DNA of 64,000 bases from Acidovorax sp. RAC01 (lineage in GTDB: Bacteria > Pseudomonadota > Gammaproteobacteria > Burkholderiales > Burkholderiaceae_C), in contig NZ_CP016447.1 in NCBI RefSeq assembly GCF_001714725.1, forward strand, positions 930,001 through 994,000, read 5' to 3'. Below the pieces are notes generated by a model. It ran no database searches, was not told where the DNA came from, and saw only the letters and a list, made by a program, of their open reading frames with translations. Of this stretch, positions 53,096 to 64,000 are shown piece after piece. How positions within the stretch are numbered: position 1 is the first letter of the stretch; each line of letters starts with the position of its first letter. The position numbers were made by a program, and so were the translations under genes.

Positions 53096-53275
53096 CAGCG
53101 CCACCGCTTCCCGCGGGCCTGCGGGGCAGCGTCTCCAGGCAGCTCTCCGTGACCAGGCTGCCCCGTTCCGGGCGGCCCCACCCTACTTGCGTCGGGTTGC
53201 CGCACCCCGAGGCTTGGCCAAAGATCAGCGCTTTGTCTGCACGCTCCGCACCGTGGCAGGGCGTGCACTGTCTCT

Positions 53276-53400: not shown

Positions 53401-54489
53401 ATGTCCGCCGCACAGCGGCCGCGCGTACCCGGCCGCATGGCTGCCGCTGCCGTGCTGGGTGTGGCCGCGCTGCTGGCGGGCTGTGAAACCACGAACATGC
53501 GCATGGGCAGTTCGGAAGCCAAGACGGTGGCCACGGGCAGCGCAGCCGGTGCGGCCAACGCCAATGCCAGCGATGCGCTGGAGCGCTGCGAGAGCCCGCT
53601 GGGCACCGTGTCGCTGATCGAAAACCAGCAGGCCGGCTGGTACACCATCCTGCGCGACCAGTACCGCCTGCCGCCCACCGCCAATTTGCTGCGCCTGCTG
53701 GTGCAGCAATCGAACTGCTTTGTGGTGGTGGAGCGCGGTGCCGCAGGCATGAACGCCATGACGCGCGAGCGCGCCCTGATGCAGTCGGGCGAGATGCGCC
53801 AGGGCAGCCAGTTTGGCCAGGGGCAGGTGGTGGCGTCCGACTATGGCCTGTCGCCCGAGATCGTGTTCCAGAACAACAACGCCGGGGGTGCCTCGGCATC
53901 GCTGGGCGGCCTGGTGGGCGGGCGCGCGGGCGGGCTGCTGGCCGTGATTGGCGGCAGCCTCAACACCAAGGAGGCAAGCGCGCTGCTCACGCTGATCGAC
54001 AACCGCTCGGGCGTGCAGGTGGCGGCCTCGGAAGGCAGCGCATCCAAAACCGACTTTGGCGCCATGGGCCAGCTGATGGGCGGCTCGGGCGGCGCGCGCA
54101 TGGGCGGCTACTCCAACACGGCCGAGGGCAAGGTCATTGCCGCGGCTTTCATGGATGCGTTCAACCAGATGGTGATATCCCTGCGCAACTACAAGGCGCA
54201 AACGGTCCGCGGCCAGGGTCTGGGCGGCGGCGGCCGACTGGGTGTGGACGGCGCTGCGCCGCCAGCGCAGACCTCAGCCCCCCGTGCAGCCACGGGCGCA
54301 CAGGCGGGCGTGGCCATGCCGCTGCGCGATGCACAGGCCCGGCTGAACGCGCTGGGCTACAACACCGGCACACCCGACGGCGCCATGGGCCAGCGCACGG
54401 CCGCCGCGCTGCGGGCATTCCAGAAGGACAAGGGCCTGCCCCAGAGCGGGCGGCTGGATACCGCGACCGCCGACGCGCTGGCGCAATGA
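53401..54489 (+). CDS. CsgG-type lipoprotein with C-terminal peptidoglycan-binding domain
   Basis: About 362 aa. Lipobox VAALLAGC (Cys 28), then a CsgG/HfaB-like domain: LLRLLVQQSNCFVVVERG, a Gly/Ala-rich LGGLVGGRAGGLLAVIGGSL, TLIDNRSGVQVAASEGSASK and AAAFMDAFNQMVISLRNYK. After a Pro/Ala linker there is a peptidoglycan-binding fold (RDAQARLNALGYNTGTPDGA, RTAAALRAFQKDKGLPQSGR). CsgG proteins form outer-membrane export pores; this would be an anchored form tied to the wall. No curli genes are nearby. Start at ATG 53401 lacks a Shine-Dalgarno; an ATG at 53437 is an alternative. Confidence 0.87.
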   Translation: MSAAQRPRVPGRMAAAAVLGVAALLAGCETTNMRMGSSEAKTVATGSAAGAANANASDALERCESPLGTVSLIENQQAGWYTILRDQYRLPPTANLLRLLVQQSNCFVVVERGAAGMNAMTRERALMQSGEMRQGSQFGQGQVVASDYGLSPEIVFQNNNAGGASASLGGLVGGRAGGLLAVIGGSLNTKEASALLTLIDNRSGVQVAASEGSASKTDFGAMGQLMGGSGGARMGGYSNTAEGKVIAAAFMDAFNQMVISLRNYKAQTVRGQGLGGGGRLGVDGAAPPAQTSAPRAATGAQAGVAMPLRDAQARLNALGYNTGTPDGAMGQRTAAALRAFQKDKGLPQSGRLDTATADALAQ

Positions 54490-54526: not shown

Positions 54527-55534
54527 GTGAAGGTTATCGAATGCACGCGCTACGGCACACCTGACGTCCTGCAATGGGCCGAACGCCCCATGCCCCGGCC
54601 TGGCAGCCACGAGTTGCTGGTACGCGTGGTGGCCACCACGGTCAACAGCGGCGACTGGCGCGTGCGCGCGCTGCATCTGCCGCCTGGCTTTGGCCCGCTG
54701 GGCAGGTTGGCGCTGGGCCTGCGCCGCCCCAGGCAGCCGGTGCTGGGCACCGAATTTTCGGGTGTGGTCGAAGACACGGGCGTGCTGGCCTGCCGCTTCA
54801 GGCCGGGCGACCGGGTGTTTGGCTTTACAGGGTCGCGCATGGGCTGTCATGCCCAATACCTTTGCATGGACGAACACGGCCCGGTGGCACCCACACCGCC
54901 CCAGCTCGGTTGCGAGCAGGCGGCTGCGCTGTGTTTTGGCGGCAGCACCATGCTGCACTTTCTGCGCCGCGCCCGCTTGGCCGCAGGCGAGAAGGTGCTG
55001 GTCATCGGTGCCAGCGGCACGGTAGGCTCGGCCGCAGTCCAACTTGCGCGCAGCCAGGGGGCCCGCGTGACCGCAGTGTGCAAAGCCGCCAATGCGCCGC
55101 TGATGCACCGGCTGGGTGCCCTTCACACCATCGACCCGGCGCGGCATGACTTCACGGCGCTGGGCGAACGTTACGACGTGGTGGTGGACTGCGTGGGCAC
55201 GTTTGCGCCCGAGGAAACCCTGGACATTCTGACCCCCGGTGGGCGCCTGCTGCTGCTGGCCGCCGGGCTGGCTGACCTGCTGCGCGCACCTTGGCTGGGC
55301 CGATCGCGCGGGCTGCGCGTGATCGCCGGGCCCGCACGGGAGCGCGCTGCCGATGTGGGTGAGCTGGCGGACCTGACAGCCCGCGGCGCGTTCGTGCCCG
55401 TCATTGACAGCGTGTACCCGTGGTCCGACTTCCGCCTGGCCCATGCCCGCGTGGAAAGTCGGCGCAAGGTGGGCACCGTTGTGCTGCGGGTATCCGGACA
55501 GACCAAGCAGCAGCCAGCCCCGATCCCGGCCTGA
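54527..55534 (+). CDS. Zn-independent medium-chain oxidoreductase (quinone-reductase type)
   Basis: A 335-aa MDR enzyme: N-terminal GroES-like domain (YGTPDVLQWAERPMPRPGSH, TTVNSGDWRVRAL, VLGTEFSGVVEDTGVLA) and a Rossmann domain (EKVLVIGASGTVGSAAVQLA). It lacks the Zn-binding Cys/His set of alcohol dehydrogenases and matches NADPH:quinone/enone reductases. GTG start at 54527 with GGAG some 10 bases upstream. It follows the CsgG-like gene on the same strand by 37 bases; a functional link is not evident. Confidence 0.92.
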   Translation: MKVIECTRYGTPDVLQWAERPMPRPGSHELLVRVVATTVNSGDWRVRALHLPPGFGPLGRLALGLRRPRQPVLGTEFSGVVEDTGVLACRFRPGDRVFGFTGSRMGCHAQYLCMDEHGPVAPTPPQLGCEQAAALCFGGSTMLHFLRRARLAAGEKVLVIGASGTVGSAAVQLARSQGARVTAVCKAANAPLMHRLGALHTIDPARHDFTALGERYDVVVDCVGTFAPEETLDILTPGGRLLLLAAGLADLLRAPWLGRSRGLRVIAGPARERAADVGELADLTARGAFVPVIDSVYPWSDFRLAHARVESRRKVGTVVLRVSGQTKQQPAPIPA

Positions 55535-55729
55535 GCAGGCAGGCCAGGGCCCGCCAAGGCGGTTGCCTGCCGCTCCCAAGACCGCCGGGCAGGTCCGGCG
55601 TCGCCGCATCCCGGCCTGCAGTCCCACCGCACCACACCACACCCGGCAGAGCGGGCTGGCATGGCAGATGCGCCAGCAGCAAGGCGCATCCATCCACTCG
55701 CCTACTGGCCTACTGGCCCGCCATCCCTG

Positions 55730-56791
55730 TCAGTTCTGCGTGTAGCAGATCTTGTTGGGGATGATGGTGTTGGTGTAGCTCTCCACGCTGGCTGCCGTCG
55801 GGAACGCCGACGGGGTCTGGTCACCCAGGATGCACAGACGCGAGCCCGTGCGTGCCCACACTGCTCGCGATGTCAGGCCCGAGGGCTGCGTCCACAGGCC
55901 CCAGAAGGCCGTCAGTGTGGGTGTGCTGCCGTTGCGATCGAACACCACCGTGCCCACATCGCTCAAGGGCCCGGCCACCGTCCCCGCGCCCGAGCAGTTC
56001 GCGTCGCCGTAGATGGCTGCGCCAATCTGTGCGGTCACACGGGTATCGCTCTGGCGCGTGATGCGCCAGAGCGAGCGCCCCCACTGGCCCGGGCGCACCT
56101 GGCTGCAGAACTCCTGCTTCCAGTCGCCCTCGGGCAGCGCCACCACCGTGCCGCAATTCACCTCGACCGATCCCACGTTGGCGGCCGACACCGTGCCCGC
56201 GCCGTTGCGCACCGTACAGGCCTGCCCGGCTGGCTGCGTGCGCACGCTGACGGCATAGGCAGCGCCCCCGGCCAGCGGCGTGGCAAAGGTGAAACCGCCA
56301 TTGCTGGCGACCGCGAGGTCATCGCCGCCATTGTTTTGCAGCACCACGGTGCCGCCCACCAGGCCCGCCACCGAGCCACCCACGCTGAACGTGGCGGCGG
56401 GCAGGTTTTCGCAACGCACCTGCACGTCCGTCACATTGGCCGTGGCCTTGCCGCTGCCTTGCGCCACGGCGCAGCGCTGGCCGGCCGGCTGCGTCTTGAC
56501 CGTGACGGCATAGGCCACACCGCTGTCGAGCCGGGTGACGAAGACGAAGGAGCCGTTGGCATTTACCGACAGGTCGTCGCCCGCGTTGTTCTGCAGCGTC
56601 AGCGTCTTGCCGCTGCCCAGGCCGGCCACTGTACCGCCGATGGTGAAAGCGCCGACCGAGGGGGGTGGCGTGGTGCCATCGTCATCGCCGCCGCCGCAGC
56701 CTGCCAGCAAGACGGCAGCCACGGCCACCGGCGCCCAGCGAAAGGCAGGTCGGGCACAGCGCCCGCCGCCCCAAGCATCTGGATTGGTCAT
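55730..56791 (-). CDS. Repeat-containing lipoprotein, paralog 1
   Basis: A 353-aa lipoprotein: PVAVAAVLLAGCGGGDDD holds the lipobox. Two tandem repeats of about 85 residues follow, starting FTIGGTVAGLGSGKTLTLQN and FSVGGSVAGLVGGTVVLQNN and ending in ANVTDVQVRC / AANVGSVEVNC, a beta-sandwich-like unit found in many betaproteobacterial surface proteins. A unique C-terminal domain (EGDWKQEFCSQVRPGQWGRS, TAFWGLWTQPSGLTSRAVWA, IPNKICYTQN) is shared with the paralog at 57128. The start at 56791-56789 was chosen because it gives the signal. It is divergent from a response-regulator stub. Probably surface-exposed; function unknown. Confidence 0.88.
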   Translation of the reverse strand: MTNPDAWGGGRCARPAFRWAPVAVAAVLLAGCGGGDDDGTTPPPSVGAFTIGGTVAGLGSGKTLTLQNNAGDDLSVNANGSFVFVTRLDSGVAYAVTVKTQPAGQRCAVAQGSGKATANVTDVQVRCENLPAATFSVGGSVAGLVGGTVVLQNNGGDDLAVASNGGFTFATPLAGGAAYAVSVRTQPAGQACTVRNGAGTVSAANVGSVEVNCGTVVALPEGDWKQEFCSQVRPGQWGRSLWRITRQSDTRVTAQIGAAIYGDANCSGAGTVAGPLSDVGTVVFDRNGSTPTLTAFWGLWTQPSGLTSRAVWARTGSRLCILGDQTPSAFPTAASVESYTNTIIPNKICYTQN

Positions 56792-56846
56792 GAACAGAAC
56801 TCCGTATCTTGAAAAGGGGCGGATTCTGCGCCGCGCTCGCTGCAGC

Positions 56847-56874
56847 ACGTAACCCTACCGGGGCAGGGTTACGT
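56847..56874. promoter_or_regulatory. Candidate operator, copy 1
   Basis: A perfect 10-bp inverted repeat, ACGTAACCCT-N8-AGGGTTACGT, in the divergent region between lipoprotein 1 (start 56 bases away) and the response-regulator stub (81 bases away). The core ACCCT-N8-AGGGT is repeated at 58673-58690 before the intact regulator, so it is probably the binding site of that regulator. Confidence 0.6.
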
Positions 56875-56954
56875 CTTTCCCACCGCGGGGCATACTTGGC
56901 GAGATTTGTCTTGTCCCAGATTCCGGGCCGCCAAGTCCCGTCACCGGTACCGCC

Positions 56955-57059
56955 ATGGCTTCGTACGCACTGATCATTGACGATCAACCGCTGGTCGCGC
57001 GCGGCGCGGCCCAGGGCCTGGGCGGCGGCGGCCGCCCGACGCATGTCCCGCGGCTTTAG
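56955..57059 (+). pseudogene. Response-regulator remnant (34-codon stub)
   Basis: MASYALIIDDQPLVARGAAQ matches the receiver start of the intact regulator at 58790 (LPYALILDDHPLVAQGVAAF) and then runs into unrelated GLGGGGRPTHVPRL and a stop. Position relative to lipoprotein 1 and to the candidate operator equals that of the intact regulator relative to lipoprotein 2. It is best read as the remains of a duplicated regulator gene. Confidence 0.75.
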
Positions 57060-57084
57060 CGAGCTCACCCAACCGCCCTGCACG

Positions 57085-57111
57085 GCCCGAAGGCGCATTG
57101 CGCCTTCGGGC
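57085..57111 (-). terminator. Hairpin after lipoprotein 2
   Basis: A 27-base near-perfect palindrome, GCCCGAAGGCGCA-T-TGCGCCTTCGGGC, 16 bases after the stop of the 57128 gene. No T tract. The core CGAAGGCGCA...GCCTTCGG is like the hairpin at 1352-1376. Confidence 0.6.
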
Positions 57112-57127
57112 TGAACGGCACCCTCCG

Positions 57128-58189
57128 TCAGTTCCGCGTGTAGCAGGTTTTGGATGGAATCGTGGCGTCGGTGTACTGCTCGACCTGAGCGGCCGTGGGC
57201 AGGGCCAGGCGCTCCTCGCCCCCCAGCAAGCAGAAGTAGCCGCCCTTGAGCGACCAGACCGTCCGCGTCGTGCGACCGGACGGCAATACCCACGGACCCC
57301 AAAAGGCTGTCAGGGTAGCCGTGCTGTCCCTCCGGTCATAGACGAACTGGCCGGCGTCAAAAAACAGGTCCTCGCGGGTCGTTCCGGCACCGGCGCAACT
57401 CGCATCCGTGAACGTGACCACACTCTGACGCACATTCACCCGGTCATCGCCTTGGCGAGTCAGCCGCCACAGTGATCGCGCCCACTGTCCGGTGCCGGCA
57501 GCGTTGCAGGCCTGCTGCTTCCAGTCGCCCTCGGGGAAGCCGGAAACCGCTGGATTGGAAGCACAACGCACGTCCACCGAGCTGACATGGGCGGTTCCCA
57601 CCGTGCCTGCACCATTGGCGACGGCACACTCCTGGCCGGTGGGCTGGGTTTTCACGGTCACGGCATAGCCCGTGCCGCTGGCCTGCGCGGTGGCAAAGCT
57701 GAAGCCTCCGTTGGCGGTGATAGCAAGGTCGCTGCGCCCATTGTTCTGCAGTACCAGTCCGGTGCCCGACAACCCCGAAACCGTTCCGCCCACGGTATAG
57801 GTGGCCGCAGGGAGATCGTCGCACCGCACCTGCACATCACGCACATTGGCCGTAGCGCGGCCCGCGCCCTGCGTTACGGTGCAGCGCTGACCGGGGGGCT
57901 GTGTCTTGACCGTGACCTCATAGGACACCCCATGGTCCAGCAGGGTGGGGAACGAAAAACTGCCGTTCGCACTGAGGGACAAATCGTTCGCAGCGTTGTT
58001 TTGCAGCGTGACAGAGCGACCTGCGGCCAGCCCGCTGAGCACGCCTCCAACAGAGTAAGCGCCCACGGTGGGCTCTTGGGATTCGTCGCCGCCGCCGCAG
58101 GCAGACAACAGGGAAACAGCCATCGCGACGGAGGCTAACTGCATCAGCACATGGCCCTCGCGGCGGTGCATCCGATATTCAGCGTTCAT
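57128..58189 (-). CDS. Repeat-containing lipoprotein, paralog 2
   Basis: Also 353 aa. Signal ASVAMAVSLLSACGGGDESQ (lipobox LSAC), then two repeats (YSVGGVLSGLAAGRSVTLQN and YTVGGTVSGLSGTGLVLQNN) each ending in a conserved Cys, and the same C-terminal domain as paralog 1 (EGDWKQQACNAAGTGQWARS, TAFWGPWVLPSGRTTRTVWS, IPSKTCYTRN). Likely the outcome of a duplication that also copied the divergent regulator. The upstream frame (119 extra codons) is rejected: it is not protein-like and the ATG at 58189 gives a good signal peptide. Function unknown, presumably sensed or controlled by the adjacent two-component proteins. Confidence 0.88.
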   Translation of the reverse strand: MNAEYRMHRREGHVLMQLASVAMAVSLLSACGGGDESQEPTVGAYSVGGVLSGLAAGRSVTLQNNAANDLSLSANGSFSFPTLLDHGVSYEVTVKTQPPGQRCTVTQGAGRATANVRDVQVRCDDLPAATYTVGGTVSGLSGTGLVLQNNGRSDLAITANGGFSFATAQASGTGYAVTVKTQPTGQECAVANGAGTVGTAHVSSVDVRCASNPAVSGFPEGDWKQQACNAAGTGQWARSLWRLTRQGDDRVNVRQSVVTFTDASCAGAGTTREDLFFDAGQFVYDRRDSTATLTAFWGPWVLPSGRTTRTVWSLKGGYFCLLGGEERLALPTAAQVEQYTDATIPSKTCYTRN

Positions 58190-58789
58190 GGGACAGTTAC
58201 TTTCAAGTGGAAGGAGGGAAGTCAGATTCCACCCCGCGGGTGGGGAACGAGAATTCTGCGCAGCGGCATACGCCCCGCGAACCCCACCCACGTCGGGGAG
58301 CCGCATGAGCCAACGTTGCGCAAAGCACGCACCAGAGCGGCGGCAGTCACCCCCCCCTCGCCCCGGAGAACGTGGCGCTACCGGCGACCCCATAAATTGG
58401 GGGGATGGACGCAGGCAGTCGTGCCACTCGAGACCGATCCCGCCCAACAGGCGCCGACACCCCGAACGGGCCGCTGCACTTGGGGATGGGAACCCCCCAG
58501 GCATCTGCATGCTCTGTTCGGGCGATGTGCCACACGACGGCGTCATGGACGGAAATGCTCAGCCCTGGACAGCAAGTGCGCCATACGTGCTGCGGCCCGC
58601 GGAGGGCGAGAGGGACCCGGCAGACCCGCACCTTACCGACGTGATGCAGTCTTGGCTGGCCTGCGACCCACCACCCTCCTTTGGTAGGGTTTCCATCGCT
58701 CTATTTCCGCGTCACACTGGCACACTGCTGCGCCAGACCCGTAGCGCGGCGGTATTCGTCGCGCACGGGCAGTCCACTTGCGCGATCAC
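58190..58789. other. 600-base divergent region between lipoprotein 2 and the response regulator
   Basis: Longer than the equivalent region of copy 1 (163 bases between 56791 and 56955). No gene is supported; open frames are Arg/Pro-rich. It holds candidate operator copy 2 near the regulator end. The extra length lies between the operator and the lipoprotein start. Confidence 0.5.
58673..58690. promoter_or_regulatory. Candidate operator, copy 2
   Basis: ACCCT-N8-AGGGT, with the same arms and the same spacing as at 56847-56874, 100 bases before the ATG of the intact response regulator. Outer bases differ from copy 1, so only the five-base arms are conserved. Confidence 0.5.
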
Positions 58790-59446
58790 ATGCTCCCGTA
58801 CGCACTCATCCTGGACGATCACCCGCTGGTAGCGCAGGGCGTTGCCGCCTTCGTGCGTGCACGACTTCCCTCTCTGGAGGTGGTCGTGGCCGCTCAGGCC
58901 GAAGCGGCCCGCGAGATCCTGGCATTGCGCGGCGCCCCCTCGATCGCACTGGTGGACTACTGGATTGCCCACGATACGACGCTGGACCTGGTGACCGACC
59001 TGCGCGCGCGCTTCCCGGCCACGCCTGTGGCCGTGATGAGCGGCGATGATGATCCGGCGGTGGTGGCGCAGGTGCGTGCAGCGGGAGCCCACGGCTTCAT
59101 CCACAAGCAAGAGCCGCCGGAGGTCGTGGCCCAGGCGGTCGAGGCTCTGCTGGGGGGCCTGGCCTGGTTTCAGCCACTTCCGCATCCCGCTTCGCCGGTA
59201 CGGTCGCGCGAGATTCCAGTGAGCCCCGCCGAACTGGGCCTTTCCACGCGGCAGGGTGAGATCCTCGCCCTGGTGCTTCAGGGCTTTCCCAACAAGCGGA
59301 TTGCCCGCGAGTACGACTTGTCGGAAAGTACCGTGAAAGAACACATGACCGCCATCCTGCAACGGCTGGGCGCCCGCACGCGGGTGGAAGTCATTACGCA
59401 GCTGCGCGGGCGCCGGCTGGTGCTGCCACCGGCGCCGGCCGACTGA
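58790..59446 (+). CDS. Two-component response regulator, NarL/FixJ (LuxR HTH) type
   Basis: A 218-aa regulator: receiver domain with acidic pocket (LILDDHPLVAQ), phospho-acceptor Asp56 in ALVDYWIAHD, VAVMSGDDD and Lys106 in HKQEPPE, followed by a LuxR-type HTH (STRQGEILALVLQGFPNKRI and AREYDLSESTVKEHMTAILQ). It binds DNA when phosphorylated, probably by one of the two hybrid kinases downstream (59597 and 61528). The ATG at 58790 is preferred to an upstream TTG at 58778. The candidate operator copies suggest autoregulation and control of the lipoproteins. Confidence 0.94.
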   Translation: MLPYALILDDHPLVAQGVAAFVRARLPSLEVVVAAQAEAAREILALRGAPSIALVDYWIAHDTTLDLVTDLRARFPATPVAVMSGDDDPAVVAQVRAAGAHGFIHKQEPPEVVAQAVEALLGGLAWFQPLPHPASPVRSREIPVSPAELGLSTRQGEILALVLQGFPNKRIAREYDLSESTVKEHMTAILQRLGARTRVEVITQLRGRRLVLPPAPAD

Positions 59447-59596
59447 AATGCCCGGGCAACCCTCGATGGGGCGCGCATTCCAGCCCTGGGCAGGCTCGTC
59501 CCGCGCATCGGGTGGATGGCCGGCCACGGCTCAGCCGGCACGCGCAGCAGGCCGGGCGCCAGGGGCGGTGCATTACGCTGCACGGGGCCTGCAGTG

Positions 59597-61531
59597 ATGG
59601 ACACCTCGTTCTGGCGCCGCTGGTTTCCGCGCCCGCTGGACGGCGGCGAACTGGGTGACCGCGGCCATGTGCGCATGCTGGAACTTACCCACCAGCGGCT
59701 GGTTTTGAGTATTTGCGCCATGCCGCTGCTGGGGGCGCCGCTGACCATGTGGTTCCAGGGCCTGGGGCGCAATCCGCTGGGGTTAGGTCTGTGGACGGCG
59801 CTGTACACGGTGGCTGCACTGGCCGTGTGGCAGCAGTCCCGCCGGCTGCGCCACAGCAGGGTGGCACCTCAGGGGCAGGACGACGCACAGTGGCTGGCGC
59901 AATGGCGGCCCCGTGTGCGGGCTACCAGCCTCATCCACGCACTGGGGCTGGCGGCGCTGGGCGCCATCGTGGTGGCCACGCCGGGCCGGGCGCACTACGA
60001 CTTCATCCTGCTGCTGCATGTGACTCTGGCCGTGGTGATCGTGGGCAACGCCACGTTCCAGCTTCCCTCGGTGGGCATGTTTTTGCGCATGTACGGGCTG
60101 GGCTGGGGCGTGGCTACCGTGGTGCTGCCGGTGGCGCTGATGCAATGGCCCTCGCTCATGCATGGGCCGGGCGATGCCGGGGGCGGCGCTGCGTCGCCCT
60201 GGCGCTTCATCATTCCCGTATCGCTGCTGCTGCTGATTGCGCTGTACCGCCACGCGGTGGTAGCGAACAATTTTTTTGTGCAGCAGGTACGGCTGGAGGA
60301 AGAAGGCCTGCACCTGGCCCGGCAGGCAAGCCTTGCGCATGAAAAAGCCGAGGCCGCGCTGGTGGACAAAAACCTGTTTCTGCGCACCGCCAGCCACGAC
60401 CTGCGCCAGCCGGTGCATGCCATGGGCTTTCAGATCGAGGCCATCCGCCAGCGCAACCAGGACCCGGCGCTCACGCCCGCGCTGGAAGACCTGCGGCGCA
60501 GCGTGCAATCGGTGCACCTCATGTTCAATGCGCTGCTGGACCTGTCGCGCATGGAGAACCGGGCGTTGCCCGAACGCCTGGTGCCAGTGGCATTGCCCCC
60601 CCTGCTGTGCGACATCGCGCAGCTGTTCCGCGAAGAAGCCGCGGGGCTGGGCCTGGCGCTCAGGGTGCGCGCGCCGACAGGGGGCGCCACGGTGCTGGCA
60701 GACCCTGTGCTGCTGCGACAGTCCCTGGTGAACCTGGTGCACAACGGCTTGCGCTACACCGGGCGCGGCGGCCTGCTGCTGGCAGCACGCCGGCGCGGCA
60801 CCGACTGGTGTATTGAGGTGTGGGACACCGGCCTGGGCGTGGCACCCGAGGACCACGCCCGCATCTACGAGCCCTTCTACCGCCCTGCGCATACGGCGCC
60901 CCTGCACCACGCCGGTCATGGCCTCGGGCTGGCTGTAGTGGCCCGCTGTGCCGAGCTGATGGGTGCGGCGCACGGCATGCGCTCGCGACCCGGGCGTGGC
61001 TCGTGCTTCTGGCTTCGGCTGACCGCAGCGCCAGACACGCTGCCGGACGATGCCACGGAGGCGATGGAGACCACGCCCTTCAGACCATTGGCCGGGCGTT
61101 GCCTGGTGGTGGATGACGACCCCCATGTGCTGCGCGCGTGGTCGTCGATGATGGCCAGCTGGGGCCTGGAGACCCGGACCGCCAGCGATGCAGCAGCGGC
61201 CCTGGCAGCACTGGACGCAGGCTTTGTGCCTGACGCGATCTTCTGCGACCAGCGCCTGCGCAGCGGCGACAGTGGTTTTGATGTGCTGCTCGCTTTGCTG
61301 GAGCGCTGCCCACGGGCGCGCGGGGCCATGGTGAGTGGCGAACGGGATGCGCCCGAACTGGCTGCGGCACAGGCGCAGGGCTATCTGGTGCTGAGCAAAC
61401 CGGTGGATGTTGTCACGCTGCACACCTTGCTGGTGCAGTGGCTGGCACTACAGCCAGAAGACCGGGCCATGGGAGCCGATCACGGGGGGACTGGTGGTAT
61501 CGCGGCGCACACCCGGAGTACGCCGGCATGA
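59597..61531 (+). CDS. Hybrid sensor histidine kinase with C-terminal receiver (HK1)
   Basis: A 644-aa membrane protein: about six N-terminal membrane helices (LVLSICAMPLLGAPLTMWF, FILLLHVTLAVVIVGNATFQ and WRFIIPVSLLLLIALY among them), a helical linker, DHp domain with phospho-His267 in RTASHDLRQPVHAM, HATPase with N box LVNLVHNGLRYT, G1 VWDTGLGVAPED and G2 GHGLGLAVVARC, then a receiver with Asp551 in DAIFCDQRLRSGD. The membrane region, not a periplasmic domain, is the likely sensor. The start at ATG 59597 removes a 27-codon Arg/Gly-rich leader. It is 150 bases after the regulator gene and overlaps HK2 by ATGA. Confidence 0.93.
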   Translation: MDTSFWRRWFPRPLDGGELGDRGHVRMLELTHQRLVLSICAMPLLGAPLTMWFQGLGRNPLGLGLWTALYTVAALAVWQQSRRLRHSRVAPQGQDDAQWLAQWRPRVRATSLIHALGLAALGAIVVATPGRAHYDFILLLHVTLAVVIVGNATFQLPSVGMFLRMYGLGWGVATVVLPVALMQWPSLMHGPGDAGGGAASPWRFIIPVSLLLLIALYRHAVVANNFFVQQVRLEEEGLHLARQASLAHEKAEAALVDKNLFLRTASHDLRQPVHAMGFQIEAIRQRNQDPALTPALEDLRRSVQSVHLMFNALLDLSRMENRALPERLVPVALPPLLCDIAQLFREEAAGLGLALRVRAPTGGATVLADPVLLRQSLVNLVHNGLRYTGRGGLLLAARRRGTDWCIEVWDTGLGVAPEDHARIYEPFYRPAHTAPLHHAGHGLGLAVVARCAELMGAAHGMRSRPGRGSCFWLRLTAAPDTLPDDATEAMETTPFRPLAGRCLVVDDDPHVLRAWSSMMASWGLETRTASDAAAALAALDAGFVPDAIFCDQRLRSGDSGFDVLLALLERCPRARGAMVSGERDAPELAAAQAQGYLVLSKPVDVVTLHTLLVQWLALQPEDRAMGADHGGTGGIAAHTRSTPA

Positions 61532-63333
61532 CACTGCCCGTCTCCGACCTCGCTTCAGACCCCCTGGCGAATGACACCCCCAGCGCCGCAGGACAGCTGC
61601 GCCTGCTGGAAGCATCGTTCGCGCGCCTGCGGCTGGGCATGTCTGCGATGCCCCTTACCGGCCTGATCTTCGGTGTGCTGATGAATGCACAGGATGGCCC
61701 GGGCGTCAGGATGTTCTGGTGGGGTGGCGCCTACGTGCTGGCGCTGTTGCTGGTCTGGTGGGGGCATCAACGGTATCGGCAGCAGCGAACCCACGAGCCT
61801 CCCGAGGTCATGCTGCGCATCTGGTACGGACGCGTGTGCTGGCTGGCGCTTGCACACGGCCTGGGCATGTCGCTGTCCGTGGCGCTGTCGCTCGATCACG
61901 CCCACTACGAATACATGTTGATGCTGCACGTGGCTCTGTTGGGTATCCTGACTGCCAACGCGGCACAGATGACCGCGGTGCTTCGGGTGTACCAGATGTT
62001 CATGGCGGGTGCAGTCAGCGGTTTGGTCGTGGGACCCTTCGCATTTCCCACCATATGGCCGTTCTTGTTCCCGATGACCCTGATCATGTCGTTCGTGATC
62101 TACCGCAGCGGCGTCAAAGCGCACGGCTTTCTGGTCCGGCAAGTTCTGCTCGAAGAGCGCAGCCGCGACCTGGCCGAACGTTACCGCGCTGCCAGCAGTG
62201 CTGCACTGGAGGCGCTGGCCGAGAAAAACCACTTCCTGGGTGCGGCTGCGCACGACCTGCGCCAGCCTGTCCACGCCATGGCCCTCTTGGCCGAAGCCAT
62301 TGCACTGCACGGCCAGCATGTTGCCGGGCTGGCCCCGCTGCTGCAGCAATGGCGCCAGAGCATGCGCTCCGTGAACCACATGTTCAATACGCTGCTCGAC
62401 CTGTCGCGCATCGAGTCGGGCACCATGAAGGCGCGACCCACAACCGTTTCCATTGCGCAGCTACTGGACGAAGTGGGCCTGCAGTTTGGCGAGGATGCGC
62501 GAGCCCGTGGGCTGGTGCTGCGGCTGCGCCCTGCGCCACCCGAGGCCCTGCTCTGGACCGACCCGGCCCTGGTGCGGCAGGCGCTGTTCAACCTGGTGCA
62601 CAACGCCTTGCGCTACACACCCCACGGCGGCGTGCTGGTGGCGGCGCGCCGGCGGGCGGGTCGCTGGCGCATCGGGGTCTGGGACACCGGCACCGGGATG
62701 GCCGAACAGGAACAGACACGCATTTTTGAGGCCTTCTACCGCGGCGCGGGCGCCCATGCCGCAGTGCCCGGTGGCCACGGGCTGGGCCTGGCCGTGGTGG
62801 CGCGGTGCGTGGCGCTCATGGATGCCCGACAGGGCGTGCGTTCACACCCCGGCCGCGGCTCGTACTTCTGGCTTGAACTGCCTGCGGCCACGGCCAAGCA
62901 GGCCACGTCGGTCCCCTCTTGCACCTATCAGACACCCCCGCCTTCACCGCGCCTGCGCGGAAATTGCCTGGTCGTCGACGATGAGCCCCAGGTCCTGCAG
63001 GCTTGGTCAGCCCTGCTCGGCAGCTGGGGGCTGCATCTGCGCACCGCCACCGGTTTGCAACAGGCATGGGCGCAACTGGACGCCGGGTTCGTGCCGGACG
63101 TGATCCTGTGCGACGAGCACCTGGGCCATGGCGAGCGCGGTTTCGCCGTTTTGCAGGCGCTGCTCGAGCGCTGCCCCGCAGCGCGCGGTGCGATGGTCAG
63201 CGGTGAATTCGACACACCCTCCCTGCAGGACGCGCTGGGCGAGGGCTATCTGGTACTGCACAAGCCGGTAGACCCGGAAACCCTGCACGACATGCTCAGC
63301 CGCTGGCTGGATGGCAATCAAAATGCCACTTAG
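61528..63333 (+). CDS. Hybrid sensor histidine kinase with C-terminal receiver (HK2)
   Basis: A 601-aa paralog of HK1 with the same plan: membrane sensor of about six helices (MFWWGGAYVLALLLVWWG, YMLMLHVALLGILTANAAQM, WPFLFPMTLIMSFVIY), DHp with His242 in GAAAHDLRQPVHAM, N box FNLVHNALRYTPHG, G1 VWDTGTGMAEQEQ, G2 GGHGLGLAVVARC, and a receiver with Asp529 in DVILCDEHLGHGE. Its ATG overlaps the HK1 stop (ATGA), so both are made from one mRNA and may form heterodimers. The membrane parts have diverged more than the catalytic parts, which fits different inputs feeding one regulator. Confidence 0.93.
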   Translation: MTLPVSDLASDPLANDTPSAAGQLRLLEASFARLRLGMSAMPLTGLIFGVLMNAQDGPGVRMFWWGGAYVLALLLVWWGHQRYRQQRTHEPPEVMLRIWYGRVCWLALAHGLGMSLSVALSLDHAHYEYMLMLHVALLGILTANAAQMTAVLRVYQMFMAGAVSGLVVGPFAFPTIWPFLFPMTLIMSFVIYRSGVKAHGFLVRQVLLEERSRDLAERYRAASSAALEALAEKNHFLGAAAHDLRQPVHAMALLAEAIALHGQHVAGLAPLLQQWRQSMRSVNHMFNTLLDLSRIESGTMKARPTTVSIAQLLDEVGLQFGEDARARGLVLRLRPAPPEALLWTDPALVRQALFNLVHNALRYTPHGGVLVAARRRAGRWRIGVWDTGTGMAEQEQTRIFEAFYRGAGAHAAVPGGHGLGLAVVARCVALMDARQGVRSHPGRGSYFWLELPAATAKQATSVPSCTYQTPPPSPRLRGNCLVVDDEPQVLQAWSALLGSWGLHLRTATGLQQAWAQLDAGFVPDVILCDEHLGHGERGFAVLQALLERCPAARGAMVSGEFDTPSLQDALGEGYLVLHKPVDPETLHDMLSRWLDGNQNAT

Positions 63334-63343
63334 GGCAAGTCTC

Positions 63344-63386
63344 ACAAAGATTCAAAGCTATTATTTTTATAGCATCAAAAATGCCC
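63344..63386 (-). repeat. Repeat A, copy 7 (partial)
   Basis: Minus strand: GGCATTTTTGATGCTATAAA and AATAATAGCTTTGAATC. It matches the GCTAT...ATAGC half of the other copies and lacks the rest. It lies between HK2 and the chemotaxis gene; the hairpin it can form might end the HK transcript. Confidence 0.55.
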
Positions 63387-63408
63387 CAGGCACGGAATCA
63401 TTTAACAA

Positions 63409-63437
63409 TTGATAACAATTGCATCTTGCTGATAAAT
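63409..63437 (+). promoter_or_regulatory. Probable sigma-70 promoter of the chemotaxis receptor gene
   Basis: TTGATA (63409-63414) and ATAAAT (63432-63437) with 17-base spacing, in a strikingly AT-rich patch, about 45 bases before the ATG at 63483. The -35 overlaps two copies of the palindrome CAATTG (63406-63411 and 63416-63421), which could be a regulator site. Confidence 0.45.
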
Positions 63438-63482
63438 GATGAAATTGATAACTTCAACGCTGTTCTAACTCGGTGATCCGCC

Positions 63483-64000
63483 ATGAAACGCTCTGCCCTG
63501 TCCACTGCCCAACGCCTGATGCTCGGTTTCGGGTTGGTGATCGCCCTTTTGGTGATGTGCATCGCCTTTTCGTACCGTGCGCTCACGGTGTCCGACGCGT
63601 CGATGCAGACGATCTACGAAGACAGGACCGTGGCGCTGGAGCAGCTGGGGGACATCCGCTACCTGATCGCCCGCAACCGCCTCATCCTGATGGACGCGCA
63701 GGAGAGCCGGGACGCTGGGGTGACGCAACGCCGCGTGACGGAATACGACAAGAACACCCAGCGCGCTGCCGACTTCTGGAAGGCGTACGCCTCCACGCTC
63801 CTCACTCCCGATGAAAAGCAGCTTGTCACGCAAATGGAAGGCGAATGGGCTACCTACCGCGACAAGGCCGAAAAGCCCACCGCGGAGGCCCTGCGCGCCC
63901 AGAACTATGAAGAAGCCGCAACCGGGCTGAAGGCCATCAGCAAGCTTTCGCCACCGGTGCAAAAGACACTGGATGCACTGATCGACCTGCAGGTGAAGGT
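63483..64000 (+). CDS. Methyl-accepting chemotaxis protein, N-terminal part (runs off window)
   Basis: The first 172 codons: a short cytoplasmic start, TM1 (LMLGFGLVIALLVMCIAFSY) and most of a periplasmic four-helix-bundle ligand domain (4HB_MCP type) with IYEDRTVALEQLGDIRYLIA near its start, the typical opening of Tar/Tsr-like receptors of betaproteobacteria. The second membrane helix, HAMP and signalling domains would lie beyond base 64000. Ligand unknown. The start is the ATG at 63483, just before TM1. Confidence 0.88.
   Translation, partial: MKRSALSTAQRLMLGFGLVIALLVMCIAFSYRALTVSDASMQTIYEDRTVALEQLGDIRYLIARNRLILMDAQESRDAGVTQRRVTEYDKNTQRAADFWKAYASTLLTPDEKQLVTQMEGEWATYRDKAEKPTAEALRAQNYEEAATGLKAISKLSPPVQKTLDALIDLQVK

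Follow-up and report, generated by a model that had tools for sequence, protein, structure and literature searches.

We analysed a window of 64,000 nucleotides (nt) from Acidovorax sp. RAC01 (C1:930001-994000 of the 4.57 Mb genome; all coordinates are positions within the window). The window contains two paralogous lipoprotein genes, lipo1 and lipo2, a regulator stub of 34 codons, the gene of an intact NarL/LuxR-type response regulator (RR), and two hybrid histidine kinase genes, HK1 and HK2, which share an ATGA overlap. All of these are present as described in an earlier sequence-only reading of this DNA. Comparison of the lipo1/stub spacer with that of genome G030, the nearest relative and our reference for identity profiles, revealed a palindrome, AACCCTACC-N2-GGTAGGGTT, between lipoprotein and RR. 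Through this one conserved 20-letter site the regulator probably activates both its own operon and the neighbouring surface lipoproteins.

The RR retains the DD pair, D56, and the conserved Ser and Lys. HK1 and HK2 are identical at 273 of 598 aligned residues, and each consists of a membrane domain followed by HisKA-HATPase-REC, with the H, N, G1, and G2 boxes present. The locus has the anatomy of a two-component system of hybrid kinase and NarL-type RR: HisKA H-box, N and G boxes, REC Asp, and GerE helix-turn-helix. When a kinase was used in a fold search, the matches were filled by the kinase core and REC, and the membrane sensor was barely covered.

The two lipoproteins are identical at 196 of 349 aligned residues (56%), and lipo1 is 90% identical to the G030 lipoprotein. 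Inspection by eye showed a signal peptide and a lipobox Cys in both, as expected of bacterial lipoproteins, and in both the Cys is followed by GGG. Cys32 is conserved in at least 90% of 35 aligned rows. The structural model of lipo1 predicts two CnaB/prealbumin-like domains (residues 47-131 and 132-216) and a C-terminal beta-barrel with a helix (217-353). The lipoproteins did not reach the gathering cut-off of 25 for DUF4369 (PF14289), scoring 23.3 and 13.8 bits. Sequence search of the PDB gave no solved chain at E≤1. In Foldseek, which serves such a multi-domain model poorly, query-length TM-scores were all <0.3 among the 50 matches listed.

Table 1. Features of the locus and its surroundings (positions within the window; a dot marks features with no strand).
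Feature	Positions	Strand	Remarks
CsgG-like lipoprotein with C-terminal peptidoglycan-binding domain	53419-54489	+	start uncertain; open reading frame (ORF) opens at 53149
Operator variant upstream of CsgG-like gene	53179-53198	.	CACCCTACTTGCGTCGGGTT; ≤1 mismatch to MACCCKACYNNRGTMGGGTT
lipo1	55730-56791	-	353 amino acids (aa), lipobox
Lipoprotein-side element of lipo1	56821-56850	-	ATTCTG (CAGAAT on - strand) at 56823-56828; putatively -10-like
Operator O1	56851-56870	.	AACCCTACCGGGGCAGGGTT; 1 mismatch
Regulator stub	56955-57059	+	34 codons; left over from a G030-type RR
Inverted repeat	57085-57111	.	12 bp, 3-nt loop; directly after lipo2 stop; 11 pairs in predicted fold
lipo2	57128-58189	-	353 aa; groups with the G007/G062 lipoproteins
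lipo2-side promoter-like element	58251-58280	-	ATTCTG at 58253-58258
Decayed lipo2-side operator	58280-58299	.	AACCCCACCCACGTCGGGGA; 5 mismatches; operator matrix rank 4 in window (3.8; next 1.5)
Operator O2, in front of RR	58672-58691	.	CACCCTCCTTTGGTAGGGTT; 3 mismatches
Intact RR, NarL/LuxR-type	58790-59446	+	REC and GerE; ATG start, TTG 58778 possible alternative
HK1, hybrid kinase, type 2 membrane sensor	59516-61531	+	alternative start ATG 59597
HK2, hybrid kinase, type 1 membrane sensor	61528-63333	+	601 aa

A scan of the RAC01 genome for the palindrome at ≤3 mismatches found two places, O1 and O2; a reversed control pattern found one. At ≤1 mismatch, the degenerate form MACCCKACYNNRGTMGGGTT occurs at three genome places, all within 5.5 kb, in the upstream regions of the CsgG-like gene, lipo1, and RR. 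An operator matrix built from 14 other genomes ranked 56851, 58672, 53179, and 58280 as the top four places of the window. A separate matrix of the 30-nt lipoprotein-side flank, from which the operator was excluded, placed 56821 first (24.2) and 58251 second (16.4); the third place scored 6.8. Judged from these scores, lipo2 is apparently served by a promoter of its own, whose operator, at 58280, has decayed.

The unit was then followed through 47 Acidovorax genomes, with thresholds of ≤2 mismatches for the operator, E≤1e-40 for the RR, and E≤1e-60 with ≥310 residues covered for a full-length lipoprotein. Operator, RR, and full-length lipoprotein occurred in the identical 25 of 47 genomes, and the other 22 carried none of the three. 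The palindrome was found at 38 places, compared with 2 for the reversed control. These comprised 25 RR-side or lipo1 sites (one per genome), a second site in G035, and 12 others. In 24 of the 25 genomes a site lies within about 250 bp upstream of RR; the RR-side site of RAC01 has 3 mismatches. In 22 of the 25 genomes, judged by coordinates, the lipoprotein and RR genes lie side by side and divergent; they are 8 kb apart in G035 and on separate contigs in G005 and G068. Each of the two separated G035 genes keeps an operator with one mismatch. The intervening ~8 kb in G035 (L142 6600-14650) includes sugar-kinase-like and TetR-like ORFs, recognized by eye.

Alignment of 24 operator-anchored sequences gave ≥1.5 bits at 17 of the 20 operator columns, with the centre free. 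CAGAAT-like elements flank the operator centre at about 35 nt on the lipoprotein side and about 43 nt on the RR side. Because the rows were chosen by operator, the flanks are the independent part of this alignment. Such elements on both sides suggest a pair of divergent, activated promoters that share a single site and have putative start sites.

RR loci were read in 22 of the 25 genomes (G060, G065, and G066 were judged by coordinates only), and all 22 contained at least one hybrid kinase, with 1-3 per genome. The expectation of the sequence-only reading that lipoprotein, regulator, and kinases form a conserved set was therefore borne out. It had also named a lipoprotein without the regulator as the finding that would count against it. 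Full-length lipoproteins did not show this (25 of 25 with RR, although in G005 and G068 on other contigs); partial relatives, consisting of the repeats or the C-terminal domain, do occur in six RR-less genomes (G027, G029, G024, G008, G026, and G018). With a cut at 42% identity, four sensor types can be told apart among the locus kinases. HK2 represents type 1 and HK1 type 2, both of them membrane sensors. Type 4 kinases have TPR repeats (by Pfam in 2 of 5 members scanned) and were judged periplasmic by eye from a signal peptide. Scans of two type 3 members found no Pfam domain ahead of the kinase core. In L145 (6208-8748) and L143 (11642-14203), a signal-peptide-like start and TPR repeats replace the membrane sensor domain. 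The TPR-type kinase of G004 (L148 10884-13432) is apparently split into overlapping frames (ORFs of 820 and 213 aa), possibly by a frameshift or an assembly error.

RR relatives (E≤1e-45) were surveyed in 399 genomes of the family, representing 141 genera, with 7 candidates scored per genome. They occur in at least 29 of the genomes and at least 14 of the genera. At 18 of 27 non-Acidovorax RR places, a palindrome with an ACCC core (at most one core mismatch and at least 5 of 9 positions symmetric) was present within 300 bp of RR; a looser palindrome rule was satisfied by 189 of 4000 random windows of 500 bp taken from those loci. A divergent lipoprotein was found by rule at 13 of 27 places, vs 21 of 1080 random anchors, and by-eye addition of the G090 and G134 lipoproteins gives 15 of 27. 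This rule replaced a stricter automatic filter that gave 3 of 27 and was considered too strict. Palindrome and divergent lipoprotein were both present by rule at 12 of 27 places, and a kinase match at 21 of 27. G105, from another genus, has an exact palindrome ahead of its RR and kinase and, 1.5 kb away, a lipoprotein with a second site (2 mismatches) in front of it. The lipoprotein itself varies. That of g72 is homologous to lipo1 (48%), and those of g112 and g43 are homologous to one another (40%); BLASTP detected no relationship between the g43 lipoprotein and lipo1. Among eight other-genus lipoproteins scanned, two had sub-threshold DUF4177 matches, that of g40 had Big_9/CshA-like domains, and that of g89 had a sub-threshold BNR match. 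On these comparisons, the RR and its predicted operator are kept as a chassis while the lipoprotein, often of another family, changes between genera.

We consider it likely that the locus is a two-component switch dedicated to outer-membrane lipoproteins, in which a self-activating chassis can be fitted with different sensors and different surface lipoproteins. The single NarL-type RR would receive phosphate, either directly or through an HPt protein, from at least one membrane hybrid kinase whose core is NahK/ErcS'-like. An RR dimer would then bind AACCCTACC-N2-GGTAGGGTT between the divergent promoters and activate, rather than repress, both sides: the lipoprotein gene and, as a positive feedback, the RR-kinase operon. 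In RAC01 the RR would also activate the nearby CsgG-like peptidoglycan-binding lipoprotein and, weakly if at all, lipo2. The lipoprotein is predicted to be a stalk of two CnaB-like domains bearing a cysteine-rich, lipocalin-like barrel; we infer its location in the outer membrane and at the surface, and likewise the function of the barrel. The claim in the sequence-only reading that the surviving RR serves two sensors and both lipoproteins agrees with the 1-3 kinases per RR and with an operator-like site at each lipoprotein promoter; its weak point is lipo2, whose site is poor.

Several observations weigh against this proposal. The genomes are mutually related, so 25 of 47 does not represent 47 independent events. 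The lipo2 operator and flank together score -11. True sites, each left out in its turn, reach 46-76, although no unrelated place scores above -31. At 2 mismatches, MACCCKACYNNRGTMGGGTT occurs at three more places elsewhere in the genome (the reversed control matches twice forward and twice in reverse). No site at ≤5 mismatches accompanies the unlinked lipoprotein of G005, the best site of the G032 C10 lipoprotein is no better than 5 mismatches, and six further paralog loci showed no convincing operator site. In other genera, 14 of 27 loci have no divergent lipoprotein by rule, and 6 of 27 (G233a, G425, and two each in G451 and G332) have no kinase match >150 bits in the stretch read. The palindrome, with 0-1 mismatch, also closely precedes a GrpE-like gene (recognized by eye, beside a DnaK-like ORF) in five genomes of another genus, g54 (L216-L220); these palindromes were set aside. 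Because of them, the palindrome alone is not proof that the RR is its binder. Another, unlinked regulator might bind the palindrome while the RR has other targets; in favour of this reading, the five g54 genomes fall outside the RR matches. Against it, each of the 47 congeners has either both site and RR or neither, the RR gene follows shortly after the site, and palindromes with a related ACCC core occur at -82 to -160 of RR relatives in other genera. We therefore regard an unlinked regulator as quite improbable.

The role of the lipoprotein may be wider than output. It could be an accessory ligand-binding subunit of the sensor that, on binding a small or hydrophobic ligand, modulates the membrane kinases in a feedback loop; we consider this rather unlikely. 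An extension of the two-component switch, which we put forward tentatively and with slightly less doubt, is a portable switch of surface identity. Here recombination would re-fit membrane sensors and apparently unrelated lipoproteins around the fixed regulator-operator chassis, and the lipoprotein might act back on the kinases as a ligand-binding subunit. New parts would enter by recombination within the RR gene and where sensor and kinase core meet. The lipoproteins found around the chassis are of CnaB-barrel, DUF4177-like repeat, cadherin/CshA-like, and BNR-like kinds, which are apparently unrelated.

The locus of RAC01 looks like a recombination mosaic when compared with G030. lipo1 and HK1 are native-like, with nt identity mostly 82-97% (lower at both ends of HK1 and in its linker). 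In the RR, codons 21-80 drop to 55-65% nt identity, and the last 38 codons are back at 90-92%. A point against reading this 3'-block as native is that several other species also reach 79-84% (aa) there, so part of its identity to G030 may be ordinary conservation of the helix-turn-helix. In HK2, the sensor (codons 1-204) is 45-70% identical, the part from about codon 205 mostly 75-92%, and the linker before REC 50-63%; the break lies near residue 205 (about 62140). The stub matches 13 of the first 19 residues of the intact RR, beyond which similarity stops. It is nearest to the start of the G030 RR (85 identities in 102 bp, vs 38 in 45 bp to the intact RR). The promoter of the stub matches that of the G030 RR as well, and the upstream element ACTTGGCGAGATTT at 56894-56907, before the stub, is still conserved. 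G030 itself has, at this locus, a single lipoprotein ahead of an intact RR.

In lipoprotein trees, lipo2 clusters with the G007/G062 lipoproteins, with support of 99/98.9 in a 22-row tree and 100/99 in a 24-row tree; its branch is long (0.57). The 22-row tree omits two long-branch rows, the second lipoprotein of G010 and the G032 C4 lipoprotein, and the lipoproteins of G060, G065, G066, and G068 are outside both trees. The approximately unbiased (AU) test on 22 rows rejected a clade of lipo1, lipo2, and G030 (p=0.003; log-likelihood 33.4 lower). The tested clade was chosen after the first tree had been seen; the hypothesis itself came from the sequence-only reading, which held that an ancestral lipoprotein and regulator unit had been duplicated and one regulator lost. 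Such a lineage-specific tandem duplication would explain the same length and 56% identity of lipo1 and lipo2 and the two regulator starts in tandem. Tandem copies do arise, as G010 has another second lipoprotein of the same family, strongly diverged and in tandem behind the first (L153 12018-13124). However, the AU result, the grouping of lipo2 with G007/G062, and the closeness of the stub to the G030 RR rather than to the intact copy make this history improbable. Simple tandem duplication is rejected; an older duplication with losses elsewhere is compatible with the trees. Because lipo2 is not the sister of lipo1, G030 has one lipoprotein and an intact RR, and the stub is closest to G030, we infer from trees and identity profiles that lipo2 and the stub arose when a divergent lipoprotein/RR segment recombined into the native RR gene. 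In the simplest account, the sensor of HK2 would also have been exchanged, either here or in G030.

The CsgG-like gene is a probable further target of the predicted regulator. Its product matches CsgG (PF03783; E 4.9e-5, 23.2 bits, cut-off 20.8) and PG_binding_1 (E 3.1e-16). In all 14 RR-carrying genomes with a close ortholog (≥83% identity), a site with 2-5 mismatches lies upstream; a close ortholog is absent from the other 11 of 25. Two RR-less genomes have the gene (71-72%), and neither of these, the only two negatives, has the site (7 and 9 mismatches). The gene is directly beside the lipoprotein in 12 of the 14 close orthologs. An oxidoreductase-like gene, identified by eye (54527-55534 in the window), separates the two in RAC01 and G030.

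Ten of the 12 other palindrome places were inspected, at least in part; G067 C1:1155626 and G068 C20 were outside this inspection. One of the 12 belongs to the CsgG-like gene of G016, and one, in G032, is near an ABC_trans_aux lipoprotein. In G001, G035, and G006 the site has a chemoreceptor-like gene on one side and a small lipoprotein on the other, both recognized by eye. In L222, L223, and L230, a palindrome with 1-2 mismatches lies between a chemoreceptor-like gene and a small lipoprotein of the ISQEGLEQRTS type, also judged by eye. This palindrome is possibly a further target or the site of a sister regulator.

Known systems resemble the locus in part. The kinase core and C-terminal REC of HK1 and HK2 fit the NahK/ErcS' family best (NF041832, of the pair NF041832 and NF041831), with 206.7 and 254.4 bits, and align along the whole domain model (positions 1-368 for HK1 and 5-368 for HK2, of 370); however, both are below its curated cut-off of 400 bits. 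In the Pseudomonas ped/exa clusters, LuxR-type regulators have a hybrid kinase encoded adjacent, and the PedS1 relative is described as soluble (PMC12997753). HK1 and HK2, in contrast, have a membrane domain at the N-terminus, and the predicted targets here are lipoproteins. The best NCBIfam match of the RR is ErdR (NF041830; 96.2 bits) of the MxtR/ErdR (CrbS/CrbR) acetate system, although it is far under the cut-off of 390 bits. Unlike MxtR/CrbS kinases, HK1 and HK2 contain no SLC5 domain by Pfam, and this system also differs in that lipoproteins are the predicted targets here. CrbR, too, works through an imperfect inverted repeat, the ACTU motif (PMC5715377). The BiofilmReg operon of Burkholderia, as given in the text available to us of PMC5192318, contains an RR, a FecR/peptidoglycan-binding protein, an NtrB-like kinase, and a DUF4136 gene. 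It is likewise a Burkholderiales RR-kinase locus linked to envelope proteins, but gene order and families differ, and that text does not describe a divergent lipoprotein with a shared palindrome. Pfam matched neither FecR nor DUF4136 in the RR, the kinases, the lipoproteins, or the CsgG-like gene. CnaB/prealbumin-like stalks belong to Gram-positive pilins and adhesins, whereas here the protein is a Gram-negative lipoprotein with conserved Cys pairs. No description of the locus was found in the open-access literature searched, and we claim nothing wider.

The locus is an ordinary kind of system, a two-component one, in an apparently undescribed form: a single-locus regulon with one shared palindrome and exchangeable sensors and lipoproteins. 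A family of orphan lipoproteins gains a probable regulator and regulon. The locus offers a cheap and precise test, with one 20-bp site, one RR, and one genome region, in Acidovorax and related genera. It is also a natural series in which the exchange of sensors and surface proteins can be studied against a regulator that stays the same.

Some smaller features were seen in the window. A sigma-54 reading of TTGGCAGAATTTGC was dropped; the spacing is wrong for the sigma-54 consensus, with 8 nt between GG and GC. An Rfam scan of 55000-64000 gave nothing at gathering threshold. The inverted repeat behind lipo2 is a possible terminator, though it is without a T run. A chemoreceptor-like gene, identified by eye, begins at 63483, past an AT-rich gap downstream of HK2, and is outside the unit as far as seen.

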